Assembly (NCBI GenBank): GCA_015056155.1
Contig: SVGU01000007.1
Coordinates: 1 to 58,318, forward strand
Direction of reading: 5' to 3'
Origin: Clostridiales bacterium
GTDB lineage: Bacteria; Bacillota; Clostridia; Christensenellales; Aristaeellaceae
Length of the DNA stretch: 58,318 nt
This document shows, in pieces, positions 5,869 to 48,982 of the stretch. The position numbers and the translations under genes are program-made. Numbering within the stretch: position 1 is the stretch's first letter; every line of letters starts with the position of its first letter. The notes below the pieces were generated by a model. It saw only the letters and a program-made list of their open reading frames with translations, searched no databases and was not told where the DNA came from.

Positions 5869-6624
5869 ATGCAGATCGGCGCTCAATTCTTCACCGTCCG
5901 CAACCAGTGCACCAATCTCGACGATTTCGCCCTGACGCTGCGCAAGGTGGCGGACATCGGCTACAAGACCGTGCAGATCTCCGGCACCTGCCCCTACGAG
6001 GCGCAGTGGCTGAAGGAGCAGCTGGACAAGAACGGCCTGCAGTGCGTGCTGACCCACATCCCCGTGCCGCGCCTGACCGGCGAAACGGCGCAGGTCATCG
6101 AGGATCACCGCGTCTTTGGCTGCGACAACATTGGTCTGGGCTGGTATGCCTTCGACGAATCGAAGGAGGATGCGAACTACGCTCATTTCATGGCGACCTA
6201 CCCGGCCATTGCCCGGGAGATCCGCGAGGGCGGGAAGTACTTCATGTACCACAACCACGATCAGGAATTCCAGCGCACGGCGGACGGCCGGATCGTGCTG
6301 GAGAAGCTGGCGGAGGAGATCCCGGCGGAGCTGATGGGCTTCACGCTGGATACCTTCTGGGTGCAGGCAGGCGGCGGCGACCCGGCTCAGTGGCTCGAGC
6401 GCCTGGCCGGCCGCGTCCCCGTCATCCACCTCAAGGACTTCTCCTACGGCAGGAAGATGGCTGTCGTCGGCGAGGGCAATATCAATTTCGACCGCGTCTT
6501 CCAGGCCGCCGAAGCCAGCGGCACCCGCTACATGCTCGTCGAGCAGGACGACTGCAACGGCGAAGACCCCATCGAGTGCCTCCGCAGGAGCTATCGGTAT
6601 TTGGTGAGCTGCGGGTTTGAGTAA
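5869..6624 (+). CDS. Sugar phosphate isomerase/epimerase (xylose isomerase-like TIM barrel)
   Basis: 251 aa, a typical length for the AP-endonuclease-2/IolE-type fold. Recognisable segments are MQIGAQFFTVRNQ, GYKTVQISG, YHNHDQEF (metal ligands), FTLDTFWVQAGG (Asp ligand), VIHLKDF and MLVEQDDCNG (Glu ligand). Enzymes of this fold isomerise or epimerise sugars or sugar phosphates and need a divalent metal. It is the third gene of the GH43-GH5 operon, so it probably acts on the released monosaccharide. Start is ATG behind AAGGAGG. The structured repeat copy A begins at the base after its stop codon. Confidence 0.88.
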   Translation: MQIGAQFFTVRNQCTNLDDFALTLRKVADIGYKTVQISGTCPYEAQWLKEQLDKNGLQCVLTHIPVPRLTGETAQVIEDHRVFGCDNIGLGWYAFDESKEDANYAHFMATYPAIAREIREGGKYFMYHNHDQEFQRTADGRIVLEKLAEEIPAELMGFTLDTFWVQAGGGDPAQWLERLAGRVPVIHLKDFSYGRKMAVVGEGNINFDRVFQAAEASGTRYMLVEQDDCNGEDPIECLRRSYRYLVSCGFE

Positions 6625-6974
6625 CAAGGGTCTTCGACCCTTGACCCGTTTTGGGGGAGTGTTTATTGTCTTTTCCTTTGCGGGGGTCACGGCGCACGAC
6701 AGGTGCGCCGCGACGCGCTCGTGCGGCAACGCCGTGTGGGGTTGTGCGCCCACCGTGCAAGGCACGGCGGATCACGGCTGCACTTCGGTGCAGCGTGGGG
6801 ACGAAGGTTTGTGCACCTTGTTGCGTTCACGTCGTCCATGCCAGCCTGCTTCCTTGATGTCGTGGGAGGCGGCCGGATAAGCGGGTTGATGCCCCCCTGC
6901 GGTGGGGTACGGGACTTACAGCCTCTGATGGGGTGGCGTGCTGATGCACGCATCACCCCCTGTAAGGAACGGCT
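6625..6974. repeat. Structured dispersed intergenic element, copy A
   Basis: About 350 nt shared with copy B at 35839-36224. Common parts are a leading AAGGGT-CTTCG-ACCCTT hairpin (from 6626), a seven-pair stem with loop GACAG (6691-6709), a long invariant GC-rich core, a CTGCAC-TTCG-GTGCAG hairpin (6778-6793), GGCGGCCGGATAAGCGGGT, and a closing GGGGTG-GCGTGC/GCACGC hairpin near 6930-6958. The GACAG stem differs from copy B by three compensatory base-pair changes. No protein-coding frame is conserved between copies. Coding strand of the RNA, if any, is not known. Confidence 0.8.
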
Positions 6975-6992
6975 ATACCTTTGGCAATCCAA

Positions 6993-7048
6993 TAAAAAAC
7001 ACGCTGCGGGCGCAGGGCTCTGTCCCTGAACGCTCGCAGCGTGTTTTG
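6993..7048. terminator. Bidirectional terminator (end of Hsp70 operon)
   Basis: ACACGCTGCG pairs with CGCAGCGTGT, with an inner CAGGG/CCCTG stem. T runs flank both sides (minus: six T; plus: TTTTGTT). It ends the minus-strand chaperone operon and any plus-strand read-through from copy A. Confidence 0.85.
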
Positions 7049-7052
7049 TTCC

Positions 7053-8072
7053 TTAATTCTGCGGCCTGGCGCTCCAGTAGGGCGCATCCGGCAAGTCGCG
7101 GTAGGCCGGTCTTCCGGCGATATGCAGCTGTCCGGCGGCGTCCAGGCCGGCTGCGACGGAGCTGTCCGCGCCCACGGCGATCAGGTCGCGCCAGCCCTGC
7201 GTTTCCGCGTCCAGCTTTGCGCCGAAGCGGCTGCGGGGTTTGCCGGTCGCCAGCAGCCGCCCGGATGCGGTCAGACCGAGGGCATAGTCCCTCGCGGCGG
7301 CGATGCTGACGATGGGCTCGTGCCAGTCCGGCTGGAGCGGCTCGCCGTTGATGCTGCCCAGCGCGAGCACCCTTCCCTCCGCGGTGAGGCCGAGGAGGTA
7401 GCCTTCCCCGGCTTCGATGGCGATCACGCCCTGCCAGGCGTCCGGGGCCAGACAGGTGCACACGCTGCCAGTTTCGGACAGCCGCCGTCCTGCCCGGAAG
7501 CACTCATCGGCCTGGGCGGCGGAGGCGATCAGCACCGTGCCGTCCCTGCGCAGCCCAGCGATATGCGCCGCGCCGGAGGCCAGCTGGGTCACGTCCGTCC
7601 AGAGGGAAAGCGCTTGCTCGAAGGGCGTGTACCCCCGCACGGTCACCCGGCCGTCGCGGATCAGGCAGGTCGCCTTGTCCATCGCATGCACGAAGGTCAC
7701 GCCGCTCAGGCCGTCCACCGCGCACTGCTGGAAGGAATCGTCGCCGGCGGCTTCCGCGTGGCCGTCCATGAACGCGGCCGCCCAGTGGGAATCGCTCATG
7801 GAAAACTGCCGCACGCCCTGCAGCACCCGCTCCCGCTCGAACTGGTTGTACAGCGTCAGGGTATGGCTGCGCGGGTCCAGCACGGCGAGCTTCTGCAGAC
7901 CGGGGATGAGCAGCTTTTCCGCTGTGGGGTGGGGCGGAACGAAGATGGACCGCCAGACATGCAGCGCCGTCTGGTCCGCAAAGCAGGTCACGGCGGCCGG
8001 GTCAAAGCCGCAGGCGGCGCAGACCTCCATTCGGTCCATGGCGGCGCCGCAGCCGGGGCAGGAAATGCGCAT
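7053..8072 (-). CDS. Zinc-ribbon protein with RCC1-like repeats
   Basis: 339 aa. The N-terminus has a two-CXXC zinc ribbon (CPGCGAAMDRMEVCAACGF). From about residue 145 onward there are four or five RCC1-type repeats ending in phrases such as HIAGLRRDGTV, YLLGLTAEGRVLALG, YALGLTASGRLLATG and SVAAGLDAAGQLHIAG, expected to form a beta-propeller. No enzyme motif was found. RCC1-like propellers usually bind proteins. It is the last gene of the Hsp70 operon, so it may be the target-recognition or scaffold partner. Start is ATG behind GGAGG. A longer frame upstream has no ribosome site. Confidence 0.72.
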   Translation of the reverse strand: MRISCPGCGAAMDRMEVCAACGFDPAAVTCFADQTALHVWRSIFVPPHPTAEKLLIPGLQKLAVLDPRSHTLTLYNQFERERVLQGVRQFSMSDSHWAAAFMDGHAEAAGDDSFQQCAVDGLSGVTFVHAMDKATCLIRDGRVTVRGYTPFEQALSLWTDVTQLASGAAHIAGLRRDGTVLIASAAQADECFRAGRRLSETGSVCTCLAPDAWQGVIAIEAGEGYLLGLTAEGRVLALGSINGEPLQPDWHEPIVSIAAARDYALGLTASGRLLATGKPRSRFGAKLDAETQGWRDLIAVGADSSVAAGLDAAGQLHIAGRPAYRDLPDAPYWSARPQN

Positions 8073-8119
8073 CGGTGCGCCTCCTTTCAGCGATGGGGTA
8101 CGGGGGGATGCGGGCATGC

Positions 8120-9796
8120 TCAGTCATCCTCGCGGACGAAGACCTCCGCCTTGCGCAGGACAGCGCCGTCCTCGCCGGCCATGCGGACGCCGGGCGTGCT
8201 GCAGGCGCGCACCTGATTGGCGGTCGTGTCCTCGAAGAGTGCCTCTTCGTTCACGGCGCGGCAGAGCGTATCGTCGTACGCGTCGCCCTCCGCGGGGGTG
8301 AAGAGCACCATGCCTAGGTCGCGCATGGCGGCCTCCAGGCTGATCAGAAGGCTGGCGCATTTCTTCTGCATGCTGCCGATGAGGCTGATGACCGCCGCGT
8401 CCTTTTCCGGGTCGAGGGCGACGAGCAGCTGGGAGGCCTCCTGCGCCAGACGGCGGTTCGTATAGGTGTACAGGCTGGCATAGACGCTGGTCAAACGGAC
8501 GGCGTCCTGCCTGAACAGCTGGGTGCGCCAGCCCTGCATTTCCTGCATCAGGCTGCCGGAGACGCCGCTGACCCGGACGGCGGAGGCGTCCATGGCTTCG
8601 GCCAGATCCCGGCGGGTCTGGGCGGTACGGTCCGCAGCCTCGCTGACGGACTGCACCAGCTCCCGCTTCATCTGCTCAAAGGCGCTCAGGAAGCCGTTCA
8701 GCTTCTCCTCCATCCCGGCGCGGACGCTGTCCACCCCGGTGACCATCGCGTCCTTGGCGCTGTGGAAGGCGCTGACGGAGGCTTCCAGCTGCTGGGTCAT
8801 GTTCCGCTGCATGGTGATGGAGCTTTCGCTCATGGCGCTGCGGACGTCCATGTAGGCGGCCGCGTCCACGGGGGCTGCGAACTCTTCCCGGAGCGCCTCG
8901 CGGGTCTGGGCGGCCTCCCTGCGGACATCGGCGACGAGGCGGGCGCGCATGGCAGCCTCCTGCTTTTCCAGCTCCGCTTCATGGGAGGCAAGGGCGGCGG
9001 CGAGGGCCTCCTCGTGCTTGCGGCGTGCTTCGGCGAGCTCTGCATCCAGCGCCTCCCGCGCCTGCGCAAGGGCGGCACGCTCCGCCTCGGCCTCCGCCTT
9101 CACGGCGTTTGCGCTGTCGATGATGGCCTGCGCCTGTGTCCCTGCTTCGTCCAGCAGCTTCTGCTTCTCATCGGAGACGGCCTGGCTGGCGGCGTTCTGC
9201 AGGGCGGCGCGGCTCTCTGCCAGCTCCCGCTCCAGACCAAAGACGCGGTCCGTCATTTCGGCGAGCTGGCTGTGCATGGCGGCCTTCTCCTCGTCAAAGG
9301 CGCTGATGCGGCCCAGGAGCGCCTTCTTGTGGGCGTAGAGCTGCAGGGCGCGGCACTGGTGGTGCAGCAGCCGCTCGTCGCGGATATCCACGGTGTAGCC
9401 GGGGGCCTTGGGGTCGGTGTAGAGCAGGCCGCCGGGGGAGCTGCTGAAGGCGCTGGTGTAGGGGATGGAGTGGGTGTTCAGCTTCGCCTTGGCGTCGGGG
9501 CTGAAGAGCGACGTGTGGACGTGCACCAGCGCGCTGTAATCCAGCACATGGATGGCCGGCAGCTCGCGCCGGAGGATCACCTGCATCAGCCAGCAGTCGC
9601 CGAACTGGTTGATGTCGTTGACGATGCTCTCGTACATCGCCTTCATGTAGCCGGTCAGCAGCTGGGTCTGGCTGGCAGCGTTGGTGCGGCTGACCGCGCC
9701 GAAATGCATGTATGTCTGCCGGTCGCGCCCGTTGTGGACGAGCTTGTGATACTCCTGATAGAGCTTGTAGGTATGATATTCATGCATCTGTGCCAT
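8120..9796 (-). CDS. Coiled-coil protein with C-terminal GrpE-like domain
   Basis: 558 aa. Residues 1-170 are a globular region of unknown fold. Residues about 170-330 form a long Ala/Glu/Arg-rich coiled coil, and a second helical stretch runs to about 470. The last 90 residues resemble the GrpE dimer-base and beta head: AMRDLGMVLFTPAEGDAYDD, then NQVRACSTPGVRMAG and VLRKAEVFV. Compare the GrpE pattern of R-x-LG, D-x-x-x-H-x-A, PG-x-x-L-x-G and R-x-A-x-V-x-V. GrpE proteins release ADP from Hsp70. Its place directly behind two Hsp70 genes supports the same role. Sequence similarity is weak, so the assignment is moderate. Confidence 0.65.
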   Translation of the reverse strand: MAQMHEYHTYKLYQEYHKLVHNGRDRQTYMHFGAVSRTNAASQTQLLTGYMKAMYESIVNDINQFGDCWLMQVILRRELPAIHVLDYSALVHVHTSLFSPDAKAKLNTHSIPYTSAFSSSPGGLLYTDPKAPGYTVDIRDERLLHHQCRALQLYAHKKALLGRISAFDEEKAAMHSQLAEMTDRVFGLERELAESRAALQNAASQAVSDEKQKLLDEAGTQAQAIIDSANAVKAEAEAERAALAQAREALDAELAEARRKHEEALAAALASHEAELEKQEAAMRARLVADVRREAAQTREALREEFAAPVDAAAYMDVRSAMSESSITMQRNMTQQLEASVSAFHSAKDAMVTGVDSVRAGMEEKLNGFLSAFEQMKRELVQSVSEAADRTAQTRRDLAEAMDASAVRVSGVSGSLMQEMQGWRTQLFRQDAVRLTSVYASLYTYTNRRLAQEASQLLVALDPEKDAAVISLIGSMQKKCASLLISLEAAMRDLGMVLFTPAEGDAYDDTLCRAVNEEALFEDTTANQVRACSTPGVRMAGEDGAVLRKAEVFVREDD

Positions 9797-9830
9797 GGTC
9801 GATGCTCCTTTTCAGTGGGGTGGAGGCGCG

Positions 9831-11360
9831 TCAGAGCTCCAGCAGGATCTCGTCCTTCATGCTGCGGCAGACGACGTGCAGGACATAATTCTCGTCCATG
9901 GAGAAGATCGCCCGGAACTCCTCGCCGGGGAACACATCCACCCGCAGCTTGCGCACGGTGATGTAATTCGTCGGACGCAGGCCGAGGGCTTCGTCCGCCT
10001 GGTCGAGGCTGCGGCAGAGCCAGTATTCGCCCCGGTGCTGGTATTTGAGGGTGATCTCCCGGCTCGTGCAGGGGAGGCGGGTGTTGAAGGGCAGGATCGT
10101 CTGCAGGCGGCCGTTCAGGAAGCTGTCGTCGTCCTCCAGCAGGATGCTGTAATCGTAGCCGGTGTACTTTTCCAGCATCGCGGGAGAGAAGGAATAGCGG
10201 GCAGCGCCGAAGGACACCGCCTGGCTGGGCCGGAAGGGCACGCAGGGCAAGCCGTAATCCGCCGCCAGCTCCTGCACGGCGCGACGTACGGCCGGGATCT
10301 GGCTGCAGCCGCCGCACAGCACGACGCAGTCGATATGCGTTTTCCGGCTCCGGGCGTCGCTCAGCAGCGCGTCCGTGACCTCCAGCGTCCGTTCGATCAG
10401 CGGGGCGATCATGTCCTCGAAGGCCGCGCGGGTCACCTGCAGGGTCACGGTCTCGTCGTCGGGCAGGGTGAATTCCTGCTCAAAGGCGTCCATGTCGCTC
10501 AGCTCGTTTTTCGCCTCGCCGGCCAGGGCATACAGACGGTCGCCGGAGGCCAGGGCGGACAGGAAGCCCTCGTCCGCCGCGCGGGAGGCGCGGAGCTGGG
10601 ACAGGAACAGGTCCCGCAGCGTGGCGTCCATGTCCTTGCCGCCCACGTCCGCGCCGTCGTGCTGGAGCAGCTCATAGGTGTTGGCGGCGGCATTGACGCG
10701 GGTGAGCGCCGTATCGAAGGAGCCGTGGCCGATGTCGTAGACCAGCGCGGTCATTTCGTCCCCGACGGAGGCGCCGGCGGTGAATTTCTGGTAGTGCAGA
10801 TAGTCCATGGCGGCAGCGGCGGGCTCCGGGATGACGCCGTGGAGCGTCAGGCGGCGGCCGTCCAGCTCGATCCCCTCCACGCAGGCGCGCACCTTGCTGA
10901 CATACTGGTCGCTGGCGCGGGGGTTGGCGAATTCCGAGGGAACGGCGAGCATCAGGTCGTAGATGGGCTCCCTGCCGATGGAAAGGCGGTGGGCATTGGC
11001 GACCATGACGGTCTCGCGGATGATGGCGGCGTAGATATCGCCGGTGCGGACGCTGACCTGCTGGTTCCGGGGGAGGCGGCAGACGATCTCCTCCTTGAGC
11101 AGCATGGTCTTCACTGCGCGGACCACGCCGCACAGGCCCTTGCGCAGCGGCGGCGCGTCCTTCCCGCGGGAAAGCCCCTGGGCGACGGTGATCGACCCGT
11201 CGGGGGCGATGTAGGCGTTGGTGGGGATGCCGACGGTGCTGAATGCGTCGGGCAGCATGGGGACAGGGTCCAAATGGATGGAGGCCGGATTGCGCGGGTC
11301 CACCTCCAGGACGGAGGCGTAGGCATAGGCATTGCCGATATCCAGACCATAGATCAGCAT
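9831..11360 (-). CDS. Divergent Hsp70-type ATPase (second of pair)
   Basis: 509 aa with an actin/Hsp70 ATPase fold. Phosphate-1 is GLDIGNAYAYASV (residues 5-17), phosphate-2 is LVYDIGHGSFDTALT, a conserved VIPEPAAAAMDY connects them, and the adenosine loop is VVLCGGCSQIPAV. Phosphate-2 has His where Hsp70s have Gly (DIGHGSFD rather than DLGGGTFD). About 110 residues follow the ATPase core, enough for a reduced substrate-binding beta domain but not for the helical lid. It lies 22 nt behind the first Hsp70 gene in one operon. It is not the housekeeping DnaK. Confidence 0.85.
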   Translation of the reverse strand: MLIYGLDIGNAYAYASVLEVDPRNPASIHLDPVPMLPDAFSTVGIPTNAYIAPDGSITVAQGLSRGKDAPPLRKGLCGVVRAVKTMLLKEEIVCRLPRNQQVSVRTGDIYAAIIRETVMVANAHRLSIGREPIYDLMLAVPSEFANPRASDQYVSKVRACVEGIELDGRRLTLHGVIPEPAAAAMDYLHYQKFTAGASVGDEMTALVYDIGHGSFDTALTRVNAAANTYELLQHDGADVGGKDMDATLRDLFLSQLRASRAADEGFLSALASGDRLYALAGEAKNELSDMDAFEQEFTLPDDETVTLQVTRAAFEDMIAPLIERTLEVTDALLSDARSRKTHIDCVVLCGGCSQIPAVRRAVQELAADYGLPCVPFRPSQAVSFGAARYSFSPAMLEKYTGYDYSILLEDDDSFLNGRLQTILPFNTRLPCTSREITLKYQHRGEYWLCRSLDQADEALGLRPTNYITVRKLRVDVFPGEEFRAIFSMDENYVLHVVCRSMKDEILLEL

Positions 11361-11382
11361 GTGGGATCAGCCTTCTTTCGGG

Positions 11383-12924
11383 TTACTGGAGCTCCTGCAG
11401 ACCGTAGTGCTTGTCGATGGTGTTCTGATGGTTCCGGGAATCGCGGACGATGGCCTGCAGCTGCCCCATGCGGTCCACGTACAGGCACAGGTCGACCTGA
11501 TAGCCGGCGGGCTTGGTTTCGCCGAAGTCGAGCACGAGGTCGATGCGGCCGCTGAAGTGCTCCGGGTCATACAGATCGGGGTCGCTGCGGTTGGCTTCGA
11601 CGATGGGGGTCAGGTCGGTGCGGCGCGACTCGGCGAGGCTGTAGGAGATCCAGCGGTCCTGCGCGGTGGGGATCTCCGTTCCGGCGGGGATCAGCACGTC
11701 CACGTACTTGCGGCCGCGGCTGTCGTAGATGTCCGCCACGCCGATGTCAAAGCGGGTGCGCTGGTGGAGGAGCTGCGTGGGCTCGTCCTTGCGGGGCTTC
11801 TGGTACGGCTCCGTCTCCATCACGCCGTAGCGCGCCGCGCCGTAGGCGATGGCCTGCTGGGGCTTGTAGATGATGATGGACTGGTCGTCATAATCGGGGA
11901 AGGCCTCCCGGAGCATCTGCATGATCAGCGGCATCTGGCTCTGGCCGCCGGTGAGGAGGATCATGTCAGGCTTGGGGACGTTGGGCTTGCGGGCGAGGTT
12001 GACGGTGCAGGCGATGGTGCGCTGGATCAGGCCGCGGACCTCGTTCTCGAATTCCTCCCGGGTGACGGACAGGTCGTAGGGCTCGCCGTAATCATCCTCC
12101 AGCATGGGGACGACCACGTCCTGCGTGGACAGGTCGCGCTTGGCGTCCTCGGCGGCGAGGAGCCAGTCTGCGGCGCGCCGGGGCGAGGGCGTCACGCCCG
12201 TCTTGCGGACGAAGAGGTTGAACATCGCCTCGTCGAACTTGCTGCCGCCCACGTCCTTCAGGCCGTCCATGTCCACCAGGTCGTAATACTCCAGCGTGTT
12301 GTTGATCCAGTTGCCCTTGACGTGGACGGTGACGCTGGCGACGTCGAAGGTGCCGCCGCCCAGGTCGTATACCAGCACGTTGTACTTGTCCCGGGGGTGG
12401 GGGAGGCTGCCCAGATAGGCCAGCGCGGCGGCGGCGGGCTCGCGGATGGTGCCCACGACCTTCACCGGCGTGCCGTCGGGCATCCGGGCTTCCTCCGCCA
12501 GCTGCACCAGATGCATCACCTGCGCCATGGTGAAGTGCACCGGGTAGGACAGGGCGATCTCGTTGGAGGTGGTCATGTAATTCTTCTGCATGGTATCGTT
12601 GGCGAGGTGGACGATGTGCTCGATCATCTTCGTGATGACCTGATCGTACTCGATCATTCTGCCGTCGATCTCCTCGCTGGTGCGGAAGCGGGTCTTGAGC
12701 AGATTCCGCCGGTTGGCCTTCGGGCTGGAGGTCGCGGCGATCTTTCCGTAGCGCTCGCCCAGCTTGCGCGAATAGAAGAATGAGGTGGGGATTCCGGCGA
12801 TGTAGGCGGGGTCTGCCGGAAGCAGCGACAGCTCCGTACCGCCGGTGCGGGTCTTTTCATTCATGTCCCGGACATAGGCGGGGAAGGAGTTCACGTTGCC
12901 AAAGTCGATGCCGATGATCGCCAT
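11383..12924 (-). CDS. Hsp70-type chaperone ATPase (first of pair)
   Basis: 513 aa. The nucleotide-binding domain spans about residues 1-385: phosphate-1 IGIDFGNVNSFPAYV (4-18), IREPAAAALAYLG (160-172), phosphate-2 VYDLGGGTFDVASV (185-198), and the adenosine loop LLTGGQSQMP (323-332). The last 125 residues include LIPAGTEIPT, which resembles the start of the Hsp70 substrate-binding beta domain (typically LIPRNTTIPT), but the C-terminal helical lid and EEVD-like tail are missing. DnaK is normally above 600 aa. The start is set by AGGTGA behind a promoter at 13048-13076, and longer in-frame extensions lack a ribosome site. No J-domain gene is adjacent. Confidence 0.88.
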   Translation of the reverse strand: MAIIGIDFGNVNSFPAYVRDMNEKTRTGGTELSLLPADPAYIAGIPTSFFYSRKLGERYGKIAATSSPKANRRNLLKTRFRTSEEIDGRMIEYDQVITKMIEHIVHLANDTMQKNYMTTSNEIALSYPVHFTMAQVMHLVQLAEEARMPDGTPVKVVGTIREPAAAALAYLGSLPHPRDKYNVLVYDLGGGTFDVASVTVHVKGNWINNTLEYYDLVDMDGLKDVGGSKFDEAMFNLFVRKTGVTPSPRRAADWLLAAEDAKRDLSTQDVVVPMLEDDYGEPYDLSVTREEFENEVRGLIQRTIACTVNLARKPNVPKPDMILLTGGQSQMPLIMQMLREAFPDYDDQSIIIYKPQQAIAYGAARYGVMETEPYQKPRKDEPTQLLHQRTRFDIGVADIYDSRGRKYVDVLIPAGTEIPTAQDRWISYSLAESRRTDLTPIVEANRSDPDLYDPEHFSGRIDLVLDFGETKPAGYQVDLCLYVDRMGQLQAIVRDSRNHQNTIDKHYGLQELQ

Positions 12925-13047: not shown

Positions 13048-13076
13048 ATTATACCATATCGGAAAAGGTTTGAAAA
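13048..13076 (-). promoter_or_regulatory. Promoter of the dual-Hsp70 operon
   Basis: Minus strand TTTTCA (13071-13076), 17-nt spacer, TATAAT (13048-13053) with an extended -10 TGG. A TTGACA lies 7 nt further upstream but at too long a spacing. No CIRCE inverted repeat (TTAGCACTC-type) was seen, so HrcA control is unlikely. The 12925-13047 leader holds nothing else recognisable. Confidence 0.72.
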
Positions 13077-13160: not shown

Positions 13161-14879
13161 TCACAGCCGGCGGAGGGTGATGACGAGCTCCTCGCCGCTG
13201 ACAGGCACGAGGGTCGCGTCCGTGTCGCCCTCGTAGCCATCGGGAACGCGGAGCGTGTGGAGCTCCTGAACGGCGGTGGGCAGGGTGAAGGCGCACACGC
13301 CGTCCGCATCGGAGACGAATACCTGGCAGGTGCTCTCGTCACAGACCTGGCAGAGCACGCCCGCGACCGGGCTGCCGTCCTGATCGACGTAGCGCACGGT
13401 GTAGGCAAAGGGGCCGGCAGACGCGGCTTTATCCGCATACTGCCAGGAGCCGAGCGACATGAGGGACAGGAACAGCTCCAGGTTGCCCTCGTCCTGGAAG
13501 CAGATGGCGATCTGCATGCCCGCGCCCGTCACATCCGGGTACAGGCAGACGGAGGAGCAGACGTACCGGGTGGTCTCGGCGGAGTCGATGGGGGTGGACA
13601 TGGCATAGCCGCCGCCGGAGAGGCTCTGGGTGAGGGGCAGGATGGAGGAATCGTAGTTGGTGAAGAAGAAGGCGCGCTCCGGGTCGACGGAGGCGTCCAG
13701 CTCCGCGGTGAAGGAGACGGACGGACCGTTGGCGACGTAGAACTTCGCATCGCCGTAGGCGGCGGCCAGCGCGCCCTCGGGATCGTCGATCAGCACCTCG
13801 CGCATGCCGGGGGCGGCAGGGAGCAGTGCCGTGCGCTCCGCCGCGGCATGGACGGGAACTGCGGCCAGCGCAGCCTCGGCCTCGCTGCCGGTCAGGACAG
13901 CCACGGAATCGATCCAGACGGTATCCTCGCCGCCGTTGCCCCCGCCGTTCTTCTGGTAGATCAGGGAGACGGTCTGCGTGCCGTCCGTGACGACGGGGAA
14001 GGCGTAGGTCGTCCAGTCGTGGACGCCGCCGAAGTGCTTGACGCTCTCGCCATTCAGGCGGATCTCCAGCAGGTCGAAGACCTCCTCCGTGGAGGTGCGG
14101 AAGGTCACGGCGATGGCATCGCCGGCGGAGGCCGTGAGGAGGGCGTCCACCTGCGCGGCGGCGTTGATCTGCCCCTGATTCGTGGAGGCGGCGACGGTGC
14201 GGCCGTCCTTCTCCTGCACGGTCATGGGCCAGACATAGGCGCTGGCAGGGTTGACGGCAGCGTCCGCGCCCAGGGCGGCGGCGAGCTCCCCTTCGGGGCT
14301 GGCGACGGCGGTCGCTCTGGCCGGGGGAAGGCCGTCATAGACCGTGGAGGAGGTGTATTCTTCGCCCACGAAGGCGTCAAACAGCCGCACGAACAGATCC
14401 TTGCTGGTCATCGCGCCGGCGCCCCAGTAGCAGATGGCGCCGAAACGGTCGACGACGATGGTCGTGGGGATGGATGAGGCGCGCAGGAGCGAAGCCATGC
14501 CGACGGTATCCTGCGCGATGGGGAAGGTCAGCCCCAGCTTGGCGGCGAAGTCGGCCAGCACCGCGTCGGTGTCCGTGGATTCGCAGGACAGCGCGATGAT
14601 CTCCACCCGGTCGGAGTATTCGGCGTAGGCTTCCTGCATCGCGGGGAATTCGCTCCGGCAGGGCCCGCACCACGTCGCCCAGATGTTGATCAGGACGGCT
14701 TCTTTTTCTTTGAGCACTTCGGAAAGGGTGACGACCCGGCCGTCATAGGTCGTGACGGTGAAGTCGCGGATGGTTTCGCCCAGGGAGTAGGGCGCTTCGG
14801 ACTGCGAGGCGAGGGCGGCGCCGCCCATGCACAGGCATATGGCGAGGATCAGCGCGGCAAATGCTTTGAGCTGCTTCAT
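13161..14879 (-). CDS. Secreted TlpA-like thioredoxin with beta-rich C-terminal region
   Basis: 572 aa. A signal peptide (residues 1-25) precedes a TlpA/ResA-type thioredoxin domain with redox motif WCGPC at residues 70-74 and the cis-Pro region SSIPTTIVVD. The middle of the protein (about 220-500) is unusual for the family and beta-rich. The last 70 residues resemble a carboxypeptidase-regulatory-like fold (VDQDGSPVAGVLCQVCDEST) containing two extra cysteines. It probably exchanges disulfides outside the membrane. It is divergent from the CXXC/Fe-S-TlpA operon, suggesting a shared extracytoplasmic redox function. The start is fixed by GGGAGG and the signal peptide. Confidence 0.85.
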   Translation of the reverse strand: MKQLKAFAALILAICLCMGGAALASQSEAPYSLGETIRDFTVTTYDGRVVTLSEVLKEKEAVLINIWATWCGPCRSEFPAMQEAYAEYSDRVEIIALSCESTDTDAVLADFAAKLGLTFPIAQDTVGMASLLRASSIPTTIVVDRFGAICYWGAGAMTSKDLFVRLFDAFVGEEYTSSTVYDGLPPARATAVASPEGELAAALGADAAVNPASAYVWPMTVQEKDGRTVAASTNQGQINAAAQVDALLTASAGDAIAVTFRTSTEEVFDLLEIRLNGESVKHFGGVHDWTTYAFPVVTDGTQTVSLIYQKNGGGNGGEDTVWIDSVAVLTGSEAEAALAAVPVHAAAERTALLPAAPGMREVLIDDPEGALAAAYGDAKFYVANGPSVSFTAELDASVDPERAFFFTNYDSSILPLTQSLSGGGYAMSTPIDSAETTRYVCSSVCLYPDVTGAGMQIAICFQDEGNLELFLSLMSLGSWQYADKAASAGPFAYTVRYVDQDGSPVAGVLCQVCDESTCQVFVSDADGVCAFTLPTAVQELHTLRVPDGYEGDTDATLVPVSGEELVITLRRL

Positions 14880-14913
14880 GCAATAATACCTCCCAAATAG
14901 ATAGGTTATGCTC

Positions 14914-14942
14914 ATTATACGGGGGAATATGCCGCTTGTCAA
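14914..14942 (-). promoter_or_regulatory. Sigma-A promoter of the secreted TlpA-like gene
   Basis: A perfect minus-strand consensus: TTGACA (14937-14942), 17-nt spacer, TATAAT (14914-14919). Confidence 0.88.
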
Positions 14943-15085: not shown

Positions 15086-15541
15086 ATGATGACGAAGCTC
15101 CTGCCATGGCTGCGGCGGGCGACGGCGCTGGCGACCATTGCGCTGGCGGCGGTCATGTGCTGGCAGTGCATGGAGATCTACGCGGCAGGCATGCGGCCGG
15201 AAAACCTGGACGCGAACGGCGCGCGGATCGCGCAGATCTATACGAGGGAAGCGGTATCGCAGCGGCTTTCCGCTTTGCTGCTCCCGGCGGCGGGCTATGC
15301 GGCGCTGATCGCCGTGACGGCATGGGTCGGACGGAAGGCGTCCGACCGGCAGCCGGCGCGCAAAACGGGCCGCCGGACGGGCATGCGCGCCGGGCTGCGT
15401 CCGCAGGCGCGGCTGTGGGTGCGGCTTTCGCTGTATGCGGCGGCGATCGCGTTCATCGTGCTGGGTGTGATGAACGGCGGTCTGCGCGACGTGCTGGTGA
15501 AGGCGATCATGATCTGTACGGAGTGCATCGGCCTTGGGTAA
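15086..15541 (+). CDS. CD1871A-type CXXC membrane protein
   Basis: 151 aa with three predicted membrane helices (about residues 10-30, 60-80 and 110-135). The C-terminus AIMICTECIGLG carries the CXXC motif that defines the CD1871A family of Clostridioides. Members of that family are much shorter, so this one has an extra N-terminal membrane part. The gene overlaps the next by 8 nt, consistent with translational coupling. The CXXC pair probably passes electrons to or from the Fe-S/TlpA protein. That is inferred from context. ATG 15089 is an equally possible start. Confidence 0.78.
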   Translation: MMTKLLPWLRRATALATIALAAVMCWQCMEIYAAGMRPENLDANGARIAQIYTREAVSQRLSALLLPAAGYAALIAVTAWVGRKASDRQPARKTGRRTGMRAGLRPQARLWVRLSLYAAAIAFIVLGVMNGGLRDVLVKAIMICTECIGLG

Positions 15542-17000
15542 GGTCATCGGCTGGCTGAAGGATCATCTGCCCACCCAGCGCAGGCTGATCCAGCTGTACG
15601 CGGCCCTCCTGTACAACGCGCAGGTCAGGGGCTTCGTCACCGGAAAGATCTACACCGGCAGCGCCAAGGCGATGTGCGTGCCGGGACTCAACTGCTATTC
15701 CTGCCCCGGGGCTGTCGGGGCGTGTCCGCTGGGCGCGCTGCAGAATGCGCTGGCTGCGTCCGGGACGAGGGCGCCGGCGTATGTGCTGGGCGTGCTGATG
15801 CTCTTCGGGATGACGCTCGGACGGACCATCTGCGGCTTCCTCTGCCCGGTGGGGCTGATGCAGGAGCTGCTGTACAAAATCCCCACGCCCAAGGTGCGCA
15901 AGGGCCGCCTGACCCGCGCGCTCAGCTATGTGAAGTACGTCATCCTGGCGGTGTTCGTCGTCATTCTGCCCCTGTGGTATGCCCTGCAGCAGCTGGCGGT
16001 GCCGGCCTTCTGCAAGTACATCTGCCCCGCCGGTACGCTGGAGGGCGGCGTGGGGCTGCTTGCCCATCCGGCCAATGAGGACAGCTTTGCCATGCTGGGC
16101 GGGCTGTTCACGGGGAAATTCCTGATCCTGATGCTCATCGCGGCGGCCTGCGTGTTCATCTACCGCGCCTTCTGCCGCTTCCTCTGCCCGCTGGGGGCGA
16201 TCTACGGCCTGTTTGCCCGGGTGGCCGTCATCGGCGTGAAGGTCGAGGCTGCGAAGTGCGTCGACTGCGGCCGGTGCGTGGAGCACTGCGGCATGGACAT
16301 CCGCAGCGTGGGCGACCATGAGTGCATCCACTGCGGGGAGTGCATCGACGTCTGCCCGACCGGGGCGATCTCCTTCCGGGCGGGGAAGATCGTGCTGCAC
16401 GGACCGCAGCTGGACGGCGGAAAGCCCGTGCAGAAGCCGCGCCGCCGTGCGCGGTATGCGGCATGGGCGCTTGCCCTGCTGGCGCTGGCGGGCGTGATGA
16501 TCGCCGTCAACGTGCCGCAGCGTCCGGCGGACGACCCCATCCCGGAGGCGGTGGTGAACGAGCTGCCCGTGGGCAAGGAGGTCGGCATGGCCGCGCCGGA
16601 CTTCACCGTGCCGCTCTATGGCGGCGGCAGCTTCACCCTGAGCGAACACCGGGGCAAGACGGTGATCGTCAACTTCTGGGCGACGTGGTGCGGCCCCTGT
16701 GTGAAGGAGCTGCCGCACTTCGCGGAGCTGCTGGCAGAGCATGCAGACGGGGTCGAGGTCATCGCGATCCACTCTGACCTGGTGACGGAGGACGTGGAGG
16801 CCTTCCTGTCTGGCTTCGGCGTTGCGCTGCCCTATGCGCTGGACGGGGATGGCAGCGTCATCCGCAGCTACGGCGGCTCGACGATGCTGCCGCAGACCGT
16901 CGTGATCGACGCAGCCGGCGTGATTACCTACAACGCCGCGGGTTCCGTGACCCTTGCGCAGCTGGAAAGCCTCGTGCAGGCGGCGCAGGGCGGAAACTGA
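15534..17000 (+). CDS. Membrane 4Fe-4S protein fused to a TlpA-like thioredoxin
   Basis: 488 aa. Residues 1-340 form a NapH/CcoG-like polyferredoxin: GLNCYSCPGAVGACPLGALQ, CGFLCPVG and CRFLCPLG on membrane segments, then two 4Fe-4S clusters CVDCGRCVEHC and CIHCGECIDVCP. After a further membrane helix, residues 345-488 are an extracytoplasmic TlpA/ResA domain with CGPC at 386-389. In other Clostridia these are usually two genes. The layout suggests electrons move from cytoplasmic ferredoxin through the membrane to an external thiol. Start is TTG at 15534 with GGAG upstream, overlapping the previous stop. Confidence 0.9.
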   Translation: MGKVIGWLKDHLPTQRRLIQLYAALLYNAQVRGFVTGKIYTGSAKAMCVPGLNCYSCPGAVGACPLGALQNALAASGTRAPAYVLGVLMLFGMTLGRTICGFLCPVGLMQELLYKIPTPKVRKGRLTRALSYVKYVILAVFVVILPLWYALQQLAVPAFCKYICPAGTLEGGVGLLAHPANEDSFAMLGGLFTGKFLILMLIAAACVFIYRAFCRFLCPLGAIYGLFARVAVIGVKVEAAKCVDCGRCVEHCGMDIRSVGDHECIHCGECIDVCPTGAISFRAGKIVLHGPQLDGGKPVQKPRRRARYAAWALALLALAGVMIAVNVPQRPADDPIPEAVVNELPVGKEVGMAAPDFTVPLYGGGSFTLSEHRGKTVIVNFWATWCGPCVKELPHFAELLAEHADGVEVIAIHSDLVTEDVEAFLSGFGVALPYALDGDGSVIRSYGGSTMLPQTVVIDAAGVITYNAAGSVTLAQLESLVQAAQGGN

Positions 17001-38745: not shown

Positions 38746-39702
38746 ATGGAGAACCTGATCACGTCCTTTGAAGCGGTGCTGCCGCTGTTTCTGTGCATCC
38801 TGCTGGGCATGTTCCTGCGGCGCATCGGCATGCTGGAGGAGAACGTCCGCCAGAGCCTGAACAAGCTGTGCTTCAAGGTGTTCCTGCCCATCTACCTGTT
38901 CAACAACATTTATGAAATCAAGGATATCAGCGCTGTTTTCGACCTGAAGCTGATCCTGTTTGCCTGCATCGGACTGCTGCTGACCTTCGTGGTGCTGATG
39001 ATGTTGGTCCCGCGGGTGGAGAAGGAGAATTCCCGCCGGGGCGTGATGATCCAGGCGATGTTCCGGTCGAATTTCGCGCTGTTCGGGCTGCCGCTGGCGG
39101 AGACGCTGTGCGGCGAGCTGAGCGGCCCCACGTCGCTGCTGCTGGGCCTGACGGTGCCGATCTACAACATCCTGGCCGTCATTTCGCTGGAGACCTTCCG
39201 CGGCGGCAAGCCCAACATTAGCAAGATGCTCCGGGGCATCGCGACCAATCCGCTGATCATCGCCTCGCTCCTGGGTCTGGTGTTCTACTTCTTCAAGATC
39301 CGCTTCGGCCTGGTCCTGCCGGAGGCGCTGCATAAGGCGACCATCGTCAAGCTCGGCAACGTGGCCACGCCCCTGTCCCTCGTGGCGCTGGGCAGCCAGT
39401 TCGTCTTCTCCAGCGTGCGGAATTTCCGCTTCCAGCTGTTCCTGACCGTGCTGGTGCGCCTGGTCATCCTGCCGCTGACGATGGTGGGCATCGGCGTGGC
39501 GCTGGGCTTCCGCAATGAGTTCCTCGTGCCGATCATGATCATGTACGGCGCGCCCACGGCGGTCTCCTCCTACCCGATGGCGCAGCAGATGGGCGGCGAC
39601 GGTGATCTGGCCGCGGCGTCGGTGGTGTTCACCAGCGGCTTTGCGATCCTGACCATCTTCCTGCTGATCTTCGGCCTCAAGTCCCTTGGACTGATTATGT
39701 AA
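38746..39702 (+). CDS. AEC (auxin efflux carrier) family transporter
   Basis: 318 aa with about ten membrane helices. VLPLFLCILLGMFLRRIGML, NKLCFKVFLPIYLFNNIYE and MYGAPTAVSSYPMAQQMGGD are typical of the family, which moves organic anions such as malate. In operon with the serine hydrolase. Confidence 0.92.
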   Translation: MENLITSFEAVLPLFLCILLGMFLRRIGMLEENVRQSLNKLCFKVFLPIYLFNNIYEIKDISAVFDLKLILFACIGLLLTFVVLMMLVPRVEKENSRRGVMIQAMFRSNFALFGLPLAETLCGELSGPTSLLLGLTVPIYNILAVISLETFRGGKPNISKMLRGIATNPLIIASLLGLVFYFFKIRFGLVLPEALHKATIVKLGNVATPLSLVALGSQFVFSSVRNFRFQLFLTVLVRLVILPLTMVGIGVALGFRNEFLVPIMIMYGAPTAVSSYPMAQQMGGDGDLAAASVVFTSGFAILTIFLLIFGLKSLGLIM

Positions 39703-47665: not shown

Positions 47666-48982
47666 ATGAAGCTGAATGTCCGGCGGACGGCGCTGGTGGG
47701 CATGGCCTTCCTGGCGATCAACGCCTTCTGGGGGCTGTATGATTTTGCGGTCCCGCTGATCCTGAAGAACACGTATGCGCTGGGGGAAACGGCCACCGGC
47801 GCGGTGATGGCGATGGACAATGTGGCGGCGCTGGTGCTGCTGCCGCTTTTCGGCGCGCTGAGCGATCGGCGCGGACGGCGCATGCCCTTCATCCTGTGGG
47901 GGTCGATGGCCGCCTCGGCGCTGATGGTGCTGCTGCCGGTTCTGGTGCGGCAGGGGATGATGGCGCAGGTGAAGGGCGAGGGGCTGGCGGCGTTCCTGCT
48001 GCTGCTGGGATTGCTGCTGATCGCCATGGGTACCTTCCGTTCGCCGACGGTCGCGCTGATGCCGGACGTCACGCCCAAATTCCTGCGCTCGAAGGCCAAC
48101 GCGGTCATCAACCTGATGGGCGCCATCGGCAGCGCGCTGTCCCTGGTGCTGACGAAGGTGCTGGTGGTGAAGACCGTGGACGCTGCCGGCGCGAGCGTGA
48201 GCGACTACACGTGGCTGTTCGTGTCCGTGGCGGCGCTGATGACCGTCTGCGCGTGGGTGGTGAAGCTCACCATCCCCGAGGAACGGCTGAAGGCGGAGGC
48301 CGATGCGATCAACGCGCATCTGGAGCAGCCGGAGCAGCAGGACGCGGCGAAAACGCAGGCCCGGAGGCTGACGAAGGCGGAAATGCGCTCGCTGGTGCTG
48401 ATCCTGCTGTCGGTCGCGCTGTGGTTCATGGCGTACAACGCGGTCACGACGGCCTTCAGCCGCTATGCGCTGGACGTCTGGAAGGTGGAGAACGAGGGCG
48501 ATGCGGCGACCTGCCTGCTGGTGGCGACTGTGGCTGCCATCGCCGCCTACTGGCCGGTGGGCATCGTTTCCAGCCACATCGGCCGGAAGAAGACGATCCT
48601 CATCGGCGTAGCGATGCTGATGATCTGCTTCGCGCTCGGCTGTTTCGAAAGGGAACTCAACCTCGTGTCATACGTGATGTTCCTGATGGTGGGCGTGGGC
48701 TGGGCGGCCATCGGCGTGAACAGCTACCCGATGGTCGTGGAGCTGGCGTCCGGGTCGGACGTGGGCAAGTATACCGGGTATTACTATACCTTCTCGATGG
48801 CGGCGCAGGTGCTCACGCCCGTGCTTTCCGGCGCACTGCTGGAGCATGTGGGCTACTGGACGCTGTTCCCCTATGCGCTGGTGATGGCCAGCTGCGCCTT
48901 CGGGACGATGCTGTTCGTCCGGCACGGCGACAGCAGGCCGGCGGCAAAAAACGGACTTGAAGCGCTGGATGTGGAGGATTGA
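47666..48982 (+). CDS. MFS transporter (SLC45/GPH-like)
   Basis: 438 aa with 12 helices. FGALSDRRGRRMPFILWGS is the MFS loop 2-3 signature, and RSPTVALMPDVTPKFLRSKA and GWAAIGVNSYPMVVELA resemble sucrose/SLC45-type transporters. ATG follows GGAGTG. In operon with the GyrI-like gene (4-nt gap) and the diesterase. Confidence 0.88.
   Translation: MKLNVRRTALVGMAFLAINAFWGLYDFAVPLILKNTYALGETATGAVMAMDNVAALVLLPLFGALSDRRGRRMPFILWGSMAASALMVLLPVLVRQGMMAQVKGEGLAAFLLLLGLLLIAMGTFRSPTVALMPDVTPKFLRSKANAVINLMGAIGSALSLVLTKVLVVKTVDAAGASVSDYTWLFVSVAALMTVCAWVVKLTIPEERLKAEADAINAHLEQPEQQDAAKTQARRLTKAEMRSLVLILLSVALWFMAYNAVTTAFSRYALDVWKVENEGDAATCLLVATVAAIAAYWPVGIVSSHIGRKKTILIGVAMLMICFALGCFERELNLVSYVMFLMVGVGWAAIGVNSYPMVVELASGSDVGKYTGYYYTFSMAAQVLTPVLSGALLEHVGYWTLFPYALVMASCAFGTMLFVRHGDSRPAAKNGLEALDVED

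Follow-up and report, generated by a model that had tools for sequence, protein, structure and literature searches.

What does an operon with two Hsp70 ATPases, a GrpE-like coiled-coil protein and an RCC1 propeller do in a genome that carries dnaK and grpE elsewhere? The question is posed by a 58,318-nucleotide stretch of DNA from a Clostridiales bacterium (assembly GCA_015056155.1, contig SVGU01000007.1, positions 1 to 58,318; hereafter the window). Here four minus-strand open reading frames (ORFs) of 513, 509, 558 and 354 amino acids (aa) encode Hsp70A, Hsp70B, a GrpE-headed coiled-coil protein and a zinc-ribbon/RCC1 propeller, all of them present where the original prediction, made from the DNA sequence, had placed them (Table 1). 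We read the operon as a dedicated, accessory Hsp70 machine, in which a lidless pair would be served by a GrpE-type exchange factor built as a scaffold, and we put the probability of this reading at roughly 60%. That the Hsp70 pair is a dedicated one, with a GrpE-type factor of its own, is well supported, because a GrpE-like head is predicted and the gene order is conserved in other genomes; this much of the chaperone machine originally proposed stands, and its completeness in four genes does not.

Two Lidless Hsp70s and a GrpE-Headed Coiled-Coil Protein

The Pfam HSP70 family (PF00012) matches Hsp70A at 5.2e-22 and Hsp70B at 5e-29. Both proteins keep the beta substrate-binding domain (by profile in Hsp70A, by model in Hsp70B) and both lack the alpha-helical lid, as had been foreseen: the Hsp70A profile aligns to DnaK residues 1-500, with Hsp70A stopping where DnaK residue 500 aligns, and the Hsp70B model ends in strands. 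Among the relatives described below, the catalytic Lys and the phosphate-2 Asp are kept in 16/16 Hsp70A and 13/13 Hsp70B rows, and the Hsp70 Thr in 16/16 and 11/13 (the window Hsp70B has Ser). The phosphate-1 Thr of GTTNS is not kept, being Asn in 15/16 Hsp70A and 12/13 Hsp70B rows, where the remaining single row of each set begins further in. Hsp70A and Hsp70B form two separate, fully supported clades (100/100 for Hsp70A), and they are a lidless Hsp70 subfamily, still members of Hsp70. Since dnaK is located elsewhere in the host genome (contig C67, with another, truncated copy next to grpE where contig C26 ends; assembly of 2.9 Mb in 158 contigs, 74% complete), the operon Hsp70s are not the housekeeping set, in agreement with the original prediction.

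No Pfam family exceeds its cut-off in the 558-aa protein, and the GrpE family (PF01025) reaches 12.0 bits against a cut-off of 25.8 (E-value 0.17). At the profile level, the coiled-coil family is homologous to GrpE: its profile outscores 200 permuted nulls in a comparison with GrpE (which left out row L135_251, a coiled coil with no head, and in which 6/20 fetched GrpE loci were not recovered by the ORF rule), and GrpE is the top match when the family profile is searched against the PDB. Structure prediction, proposed earlier as a check, likewise points to a GrpE-like head, as the model of the 558-aa protein has the helical bundle and beta head of the GrpE fold and its six best structural matches in VIA-align are all GrpE. 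The C-terminal GrpE pattern recognized from sequence is therefore retained, although in the structural alignment it covers residues 374-558, about 185 residues as opposed to the 90 first assigned to it. Residues 166-430 contain a single proline. Two sets of further candidates were set aside: the family profile missed, at 1e-3, a GrpE-like end, suspected on visual inspection, on a 149-aa ORF adjoining the Hsp70 of genome G282 (locus L050), and weak Pfam GrpE matches at loci L102-L104 (genomes G006, G012, and G004) lie outside the family in clustering. The profile re-search, circular for rows contained in its profiles, was applied only to L050 and to gene borders.

By profile comparison, the N-terminal part (about residues 1-160) is a family trait as well. 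The window set (3 rows) scores 47.2 against a distant set of 9 rows (best of 100 permutations, 17.3), the distant set scores 91.6 against 9 rows of genus paralogs (permutation best, 21.4), and the window set scores 26.4 against these paralogs (permutation best, 22.3). The paralogs, of about 400 aa and with the GrpE-like end kept, occur in each of nine genomes; the GrpE/coiled-coil family is found in 9/250 genomes of the taxonomic family, all nine within the window's genus. No Hsp70A or Hsp70B was found beside the paralogs within the stretches read around them. Two of them lie at 6618-7859 and 9163-10212 of G000:C82 (L097), with similar genes in eight other genus genomes, and near the paralogs in three loci is a gene, recognized without a family scan, which we take to encode ribonuclease Y.

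Gene Order in Relatives

A scan of 84,980 genomes gave 163 pattern matches and 19 loci, from which two weak ones with generic Hsp70s (L142, 29% identity; L143, 22%) were dropped. The 17 loci used (16 with Clostridia-type names and one from Olsenella) are not all independent, as one metagenome-assembled genome supplied both L139 and L141, and L128 looks nearly identical to L129. In contigs long enough to show it, Hsp70A is followed by Hsp70B, the GrpE/coiled-coil gene, five genes termed c2-c6, and the zinc-ribbon/RCC1 gene. Culturable commensals with this long version include Flavonifractor sp. An92 and Eubacterium ramulus. Hsp70B lies downstream of Hsp70A in 13/16 Hsp70A loci, coming in L125 after a second Hsp70A and an Hsp70A fragment; in L127 and L129 the contig ends within it, L139 stops at a contig edge, and no Hsp70B was found after Hsp70A in L135 and L136. 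The GrpE/coiled-coil gene is next after Hsp70B in 10/10 assessable loci (14 loci have Hsp70B, but in three of them the contig stops short of the next gene and in L134 it stops inside that gene). It is followed by c2 in 10/10 loci; c3, c4, and c5 are each present in 9/9 and c6 in 8/8, and the RCC1 protein is next after c6 in 5/5 (three by Pfam, two by clustering).

The search for this order in other genomes had been suggested together with the original four-gene unit. The order is conserved, but the relatives carry five extra genes between the GrpE and RCC1 genes, so that, judged by the order seen in them, the window operon comprises genes 1, 2, 3, and 9 of nine. These comparisons suggest that the operon represents both ends of a larger machine for protein handling whose inheritance is patchy. 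We did not find c6 in the host genome (74% complete; search without a positive control).

Several of the intervening genes have recognizable families. The c2 protein (about 310 aa; L125-L141) has no Pfam match in the copies scanned; considered as a candidate third, degenerate Hsp70, it has a profile with weak similarity to Hsp70A (30.4, vs. a best of 22.9 in 100 permutations) and a score within chance against Hsp70B (25.0, vs. 27.1). Coiled-coil matches occur in c3, and c5 is a further coiled-coil gene. The c4 protein of L131 (15754-16326) is an NrdG-like radical-SAM activase (NrdG model at 9e-30, below cut-off); no glycyl-radical enzyme was recognized among the operon genes scanned. The largest, c6, is about 1,420-1,730 aa long in the five loci read past it (one cut at the locus edge). 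It is an AAA+ protein in L131, and an 834-aa piece from L126 matches SpoVK (4e-103), EccA (4e-90), and CbbX (1.5e-85), all below curated cut-offs. In L146, the source of the one full copy scanned, c6 combines three AAA stretches with a trypsin-like domain (2.5e-18) at its C-terminus.

The fourth gene of the window encodes an RCC1 protein (RCC1_2, PF13540, at 4.3e-10 and 39.6 bits, cut-off 22), and its profile search matches are BLIP-II, HERC1, UVR8, and RCC1. The RCC1 proteins of the longer operons are 24-30% identical to it, and CXXC pairs are present in 4/5 of them (the L146 copy as called begins later). Both the RCC1 assignment and the two CXXC pairs of the original prediction hold, whereas its start at 8117 gives way to a more likely start at 8072, which a putative AAAGGAGG site precedes.

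Proposed Mechanism and Comparison With Known Systems

Gene content, homology, predicted fold, conserved order, and the co-inheritance of Hsp70A and Hsp70B are directly supported, and a private Hsp70 pair with a GrpE-type factor is the simplest account of the homology, order, and co-inheritance. In the mechanism we propose, ATP would control the binding of client segments to the beta domains of Hsp70A and Hsp70B; the lids being absent, such binding should be brief. The 558-aa protein would act as a private exchange factor that dimerises through its GrpE-type helices, and its C-terminal head would release ADP by opening the nucleotide-binding domain in Hsp70A, Hsp70B, or both. Its long coiled coil and conserved N-terminal part may tether the machine to a particular site or partner, and the zinc-ribbon/RCC1 propeller could be an adaptor for target choice or for docking. 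Where the operon is longer, clients are probably handed to the CbbX-type AAA+ protein with its trypsin-like domain.

A bolder and quite tentative extension is that the operon represents a reduced version of an as yet undescribed bacterial machine spread by horizontal transfer, in which twin lidless Hsp70s, reset by a scaffold-built GrpE and working without a dedicated J-protein, would load a multi-AAA+/trypsin-like protein and be aimed by RCC1, for selective protein destruction (or for translocation with VirD4-like motors), plausibly against invaders.

With its head built into a large scaffold, GrpE would in this system be an architectural part and not a soluble helper, and the two lidless Hsp70s form two lineages that are inherited together. 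A core of Hsp70A and the GrpE scaffold can be told from optional modules (AAA+/trypsin-like protein, VirD4-like ATPases, and kinase, phosphatase, and FHA proteins). As the minimal form beside the nine-gene form separates core from modules, Hsp70 hand-over becomes testable module by module.

Hsp70 systems are commonly described as a single Hsp70 served by one J-protein and a free GrpE. The operon shares with DnaK-DnaJ-GrpE the Hsp70 ATPase fold with a beta substrate domain and a GrpE-like fold, but it has two lidless Hsp70s, and its GrpE-like head sits behind a conserved N-terminal part and a long coiled coil. As originally stated, DnaJ and CIRCE are lacking: neither a J-domain family (Pfam) nor an HPD motif was found in the four operon proteins, and no CIRCE was found in the window (best match with 6/18 mismatches, at 48629). 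Compared with canonical GrpE, the operon protein has the head and helical bundle but also about 370 extra N-terminal residues with no Pfam match over cut-off. The c6 protein resembles the CbbX/SpoVK/EccA AAA+ ATPases through the L126 piece; however, it is much longer, with three AAA stretches and a trypsin-like domain in the copy scanned, and a CbbX-type c6 gene is absent from the window operon.

Among the full-text literature matches listed, this gene set is undescribed. The nearest described system among them is a GTPase-centered Hsp70/GrpE conflict system (Kaur et al., 2020; PMC7159879). In that account, about 14% of GAP1-N2 neighborhoods have Hsp70 and GrpE, some systems have a second Hsp70 without its peptide-binding domain, and the FNIII proteins are typically fused to DnaJ or TPRs. 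The present operon is alike in having Hsp70 and GrpE in one neighborhood, as well as a second Hsp70 (present in a subset of the GAP1-N2 systems), and in occurring in Firmicutes and Actinobacteria. In contrast to what is described there, Hsp70B keeps its beta domain, the GrpE forms one protein with a long coiled coil, and the partners are AAA+, radical SAM, and RCC1 proteins. No GTPase (with zinc ribbons), FNIII, or DnaJ had a Pfam match among the operon genes scanned (some flanking genes lay outside the scan).

Distribution and Alternative Functions

The alternative that survives best, although we consider it doubtful as it stands, is a conflict (anti-invader) system, in which sensing of an invader by the Hsp70 pair, or assembly of the pair on it, triggers proteolysis or translocation, and for which the GAP1-N2 systems are a described precedent (cf. 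Kaur et al., 2020; PMC7159879). Its appeal lies in the patchy distribution, the exchange at the site, and the neighboring genes. The Hsp70 pair occurs in 1/18 genus genomes, and Hsp70A relatives of the operon kind occur in 2/297 order genomes (matches below 1e-70) and, at E ≤ 1e-90, in 1/398 phylum genomes, namely the source genome of the window; the 17 loci from the whole genome scan include a single Olsenella.

The content of the site also varies between related genomes. In G007 and G010 the thioredoxin-side flank is kept and the other flank is unmatched in the stretch read, and each has a stand-alone ORF of the N-terminal part, of 223 aa in G007:C41 (L047 10420-11091; 45% identical to that of the window) and 215 aa in G010:C145 (L048 9981-10628; 39%), with no Hsp70A, Hsp70B, or RCC1 gene beside it within that stretch. 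In G011 both flanks are present, at 69 and 55% identity, and enclose two other genes, one of them 67% identical to the window gene at 38746-39702, and the four operon proteins have no match between these flanks. As site content thus differs among related genomes, the operon is exchangeable cargo, though its GC content at third codon positions (GC3) is native: the four genes have values of 0.876-0.924, normal for the contig (mean 0.891, standard deviation 0.038 for 46 called window genes), which argues against recent arrival.

Among the neighbors, a helix-turn-helix (HTH)-cluster gene occurs in 7/17 loci (Pfam-scanned in one), TIR genes lie near L135 and L139, a VirD4/TrwB-like ATPase gene is present in 5 loci, and the copy of Olsenella sp. 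SW781 (L136/L151) has kinase-like (8e-7, just below cut-off), PP2C, and FhaA-like genes upstream of Hsp70A and the GrpE/coiled-coil protein, an FHA protein, and AbiEii downstream.

Weighing against a conflict role, a comparison of the four operon proteins with PADLOC families gives no match under E = 0.001 (best 0.0074), the ten proteins scanned from the larger loci give generic AAA, coiled-coil, trypsin, and TIR similarity only, and no nuclease or pore effector was recognized among the proteins scanned. Phage, plasmid, and viral-contig matches are low-identity Hsp70s among those listed, and we read them as generic Hsp70s on sequence identity: in the viral-contig scan none exceeds 33% identity to Hsp70A among the best 80 loci, the best 10 of 18 phage records are at 23.8-27.1%, and the best 15 of 175 plasmid records are at 24.5-26.4%. 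With a relative of the GrpE protein as query, no plasmid record matched. Phage and plasmid origins were rejected accordingly.

An ordinary accessory stress-chaperone set, a spare DnaK-GrpE that widens folding capacity, is unlikely. Its core parts are indeed chaperone parts; against it are the lack of a J-domain family in the operon proteins and of CIRCE, the placement of the lidless Hsp70s in two separate clades, the recurrent link to AAA+, radical-SAM, and RCC1 genes, and rarity. The heat-shock dnaK operon itself was rejected on the first two points and because dnaK and grpE lie separately in the genome. Least probable is a structural (cytoskeleton- or envelope-like) device, in which Hsp70/actin folds and coiled coils assemble and the GrpE head sets the nucleotide state: the very long coiled coil, the extra coiled-coil genes c3 and c5 of the larger operon, and sub-cut-off matches of the 558-aa protein to SF-assemblin (0.0031) and of Hsp70A to MreB (0.00048) favor it, but both Hsp70s keep a beta substrate domain, which actin-like filament proteins to our knowledge do not have, and no polymer-forming family scored above cut-off in the family scans.

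Operon Boundaries and Neighboring Genes

The single promoter and the operon's own terminator in the original prediction agree with a predicted promoter-like site and with a long hairpin visible in the sequence (AAAACACGCTGCG...CGCAGCGTGTTTTTT), whose inner stem, 7014-7000, was recovered in the hairpin scan. Another terminator-like hairpin, of 13 pairs (13146-13117), lies between the operon and the upstream gene.

Table 1. Positions of the operon genes, their domains, signals, and flanking genes in the window.
Feature	Position	Strand	Basis or remark
Hsp70A ORF, 513 aa	11383-12924	minus	ORF call
Hsp70A nucleotide-binding domain	about 12924-11815	minus	approximate borders
Hsp70A beta substrate domain	about 11757-11386	minus	approximate borders
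Hsp70B ORF, 509 aa	9831-11360	minus	ORF call
Hsp70B nucleotide-binding domain	about 11360-10173	minus	approximate borders
Hsp70B eight-strand beta domain	about 10151-9837	minus	predicted structure
GrpE-headed coiled-coil protein ORF, 558 aa	8120-9796	minus	ORF call
N-terminal helical part, residues 1-160, without Pfam match	9317-9796	minus	profile comparison; mostly low-confidence model
Long coiled coil, residues 165-460 (helices 165-306 and 315-460)	8417-9304	minus	predicted structure
GrpE-like fold, residues 374-558 (long-helix end, helical bundle, six strands 496-554)	8123-8677	minus	structural alignment
Zinc-ribbon/RCC1 propeller ORF, 354 aa as first read	7053-8117	minus	ORF call
Zinc-ribbon/RCC1 gene, probable start 8072 (339 aa)	7053-8072	minus	sequence, Pfam, relatives
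Zinc ribbon, two CXXC pairs	8007-8060	minus	sequence; Pfam Zn_ribbon_3 0.0047, below cut-off
Promoter-like site TTTTCA-17-TATAAT, TG ahead of second hexamer	13048-13076	minus	10/12 consensus matches
Terminator hairpin, then T run	6993-7048	minus	visible in sequence
AhpC-TSA thioredoxin-like flanking gene, outside operon; one border of variable site	13161-14942	minus	Pfam, relatives
AP_endonuc_2 (sugar isomerase-like) flanking gene; other border of variable site, shared with G011	5869-6624	plus	Pfam, relatives

A divergent set of genes (c8-c12) adjoins some of the related loci, with at least one gene in 6/16 Hsp70A loci (c8, c9, and c10 in 5 each, c11 and c12 in 4 each). In L131, L128, L138, and others the set comprises a VirD4-like ATPase, a weak TraG-like protein, an HExxH protein, and two small proteins. 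The c8 protein of L131 is TrwB/VirD4-like (2e-36; Pfam-scanned in this one of the 5 loci), c12 has a weak TraG-like match (0.007, below cut-off), and the HExxH motif of c9 was seen by eye; no relaxase or secretion channel occurs among the scanned genes of the set. The TIR genes lie at L152 16347-19604 (near L135) and at L139 3385-5538, one of them combining TIR with BspA-type leucine-rich repeats. In the window, a gene at 15534-17000, an iron-sulfur (Fer4-type) and thioredoxin-like (AhpC-TSA) fusion, adjoins the thioredoxin-like flanking gene, and both are kept next to the site in G007 and G010, as is the first part in G011.

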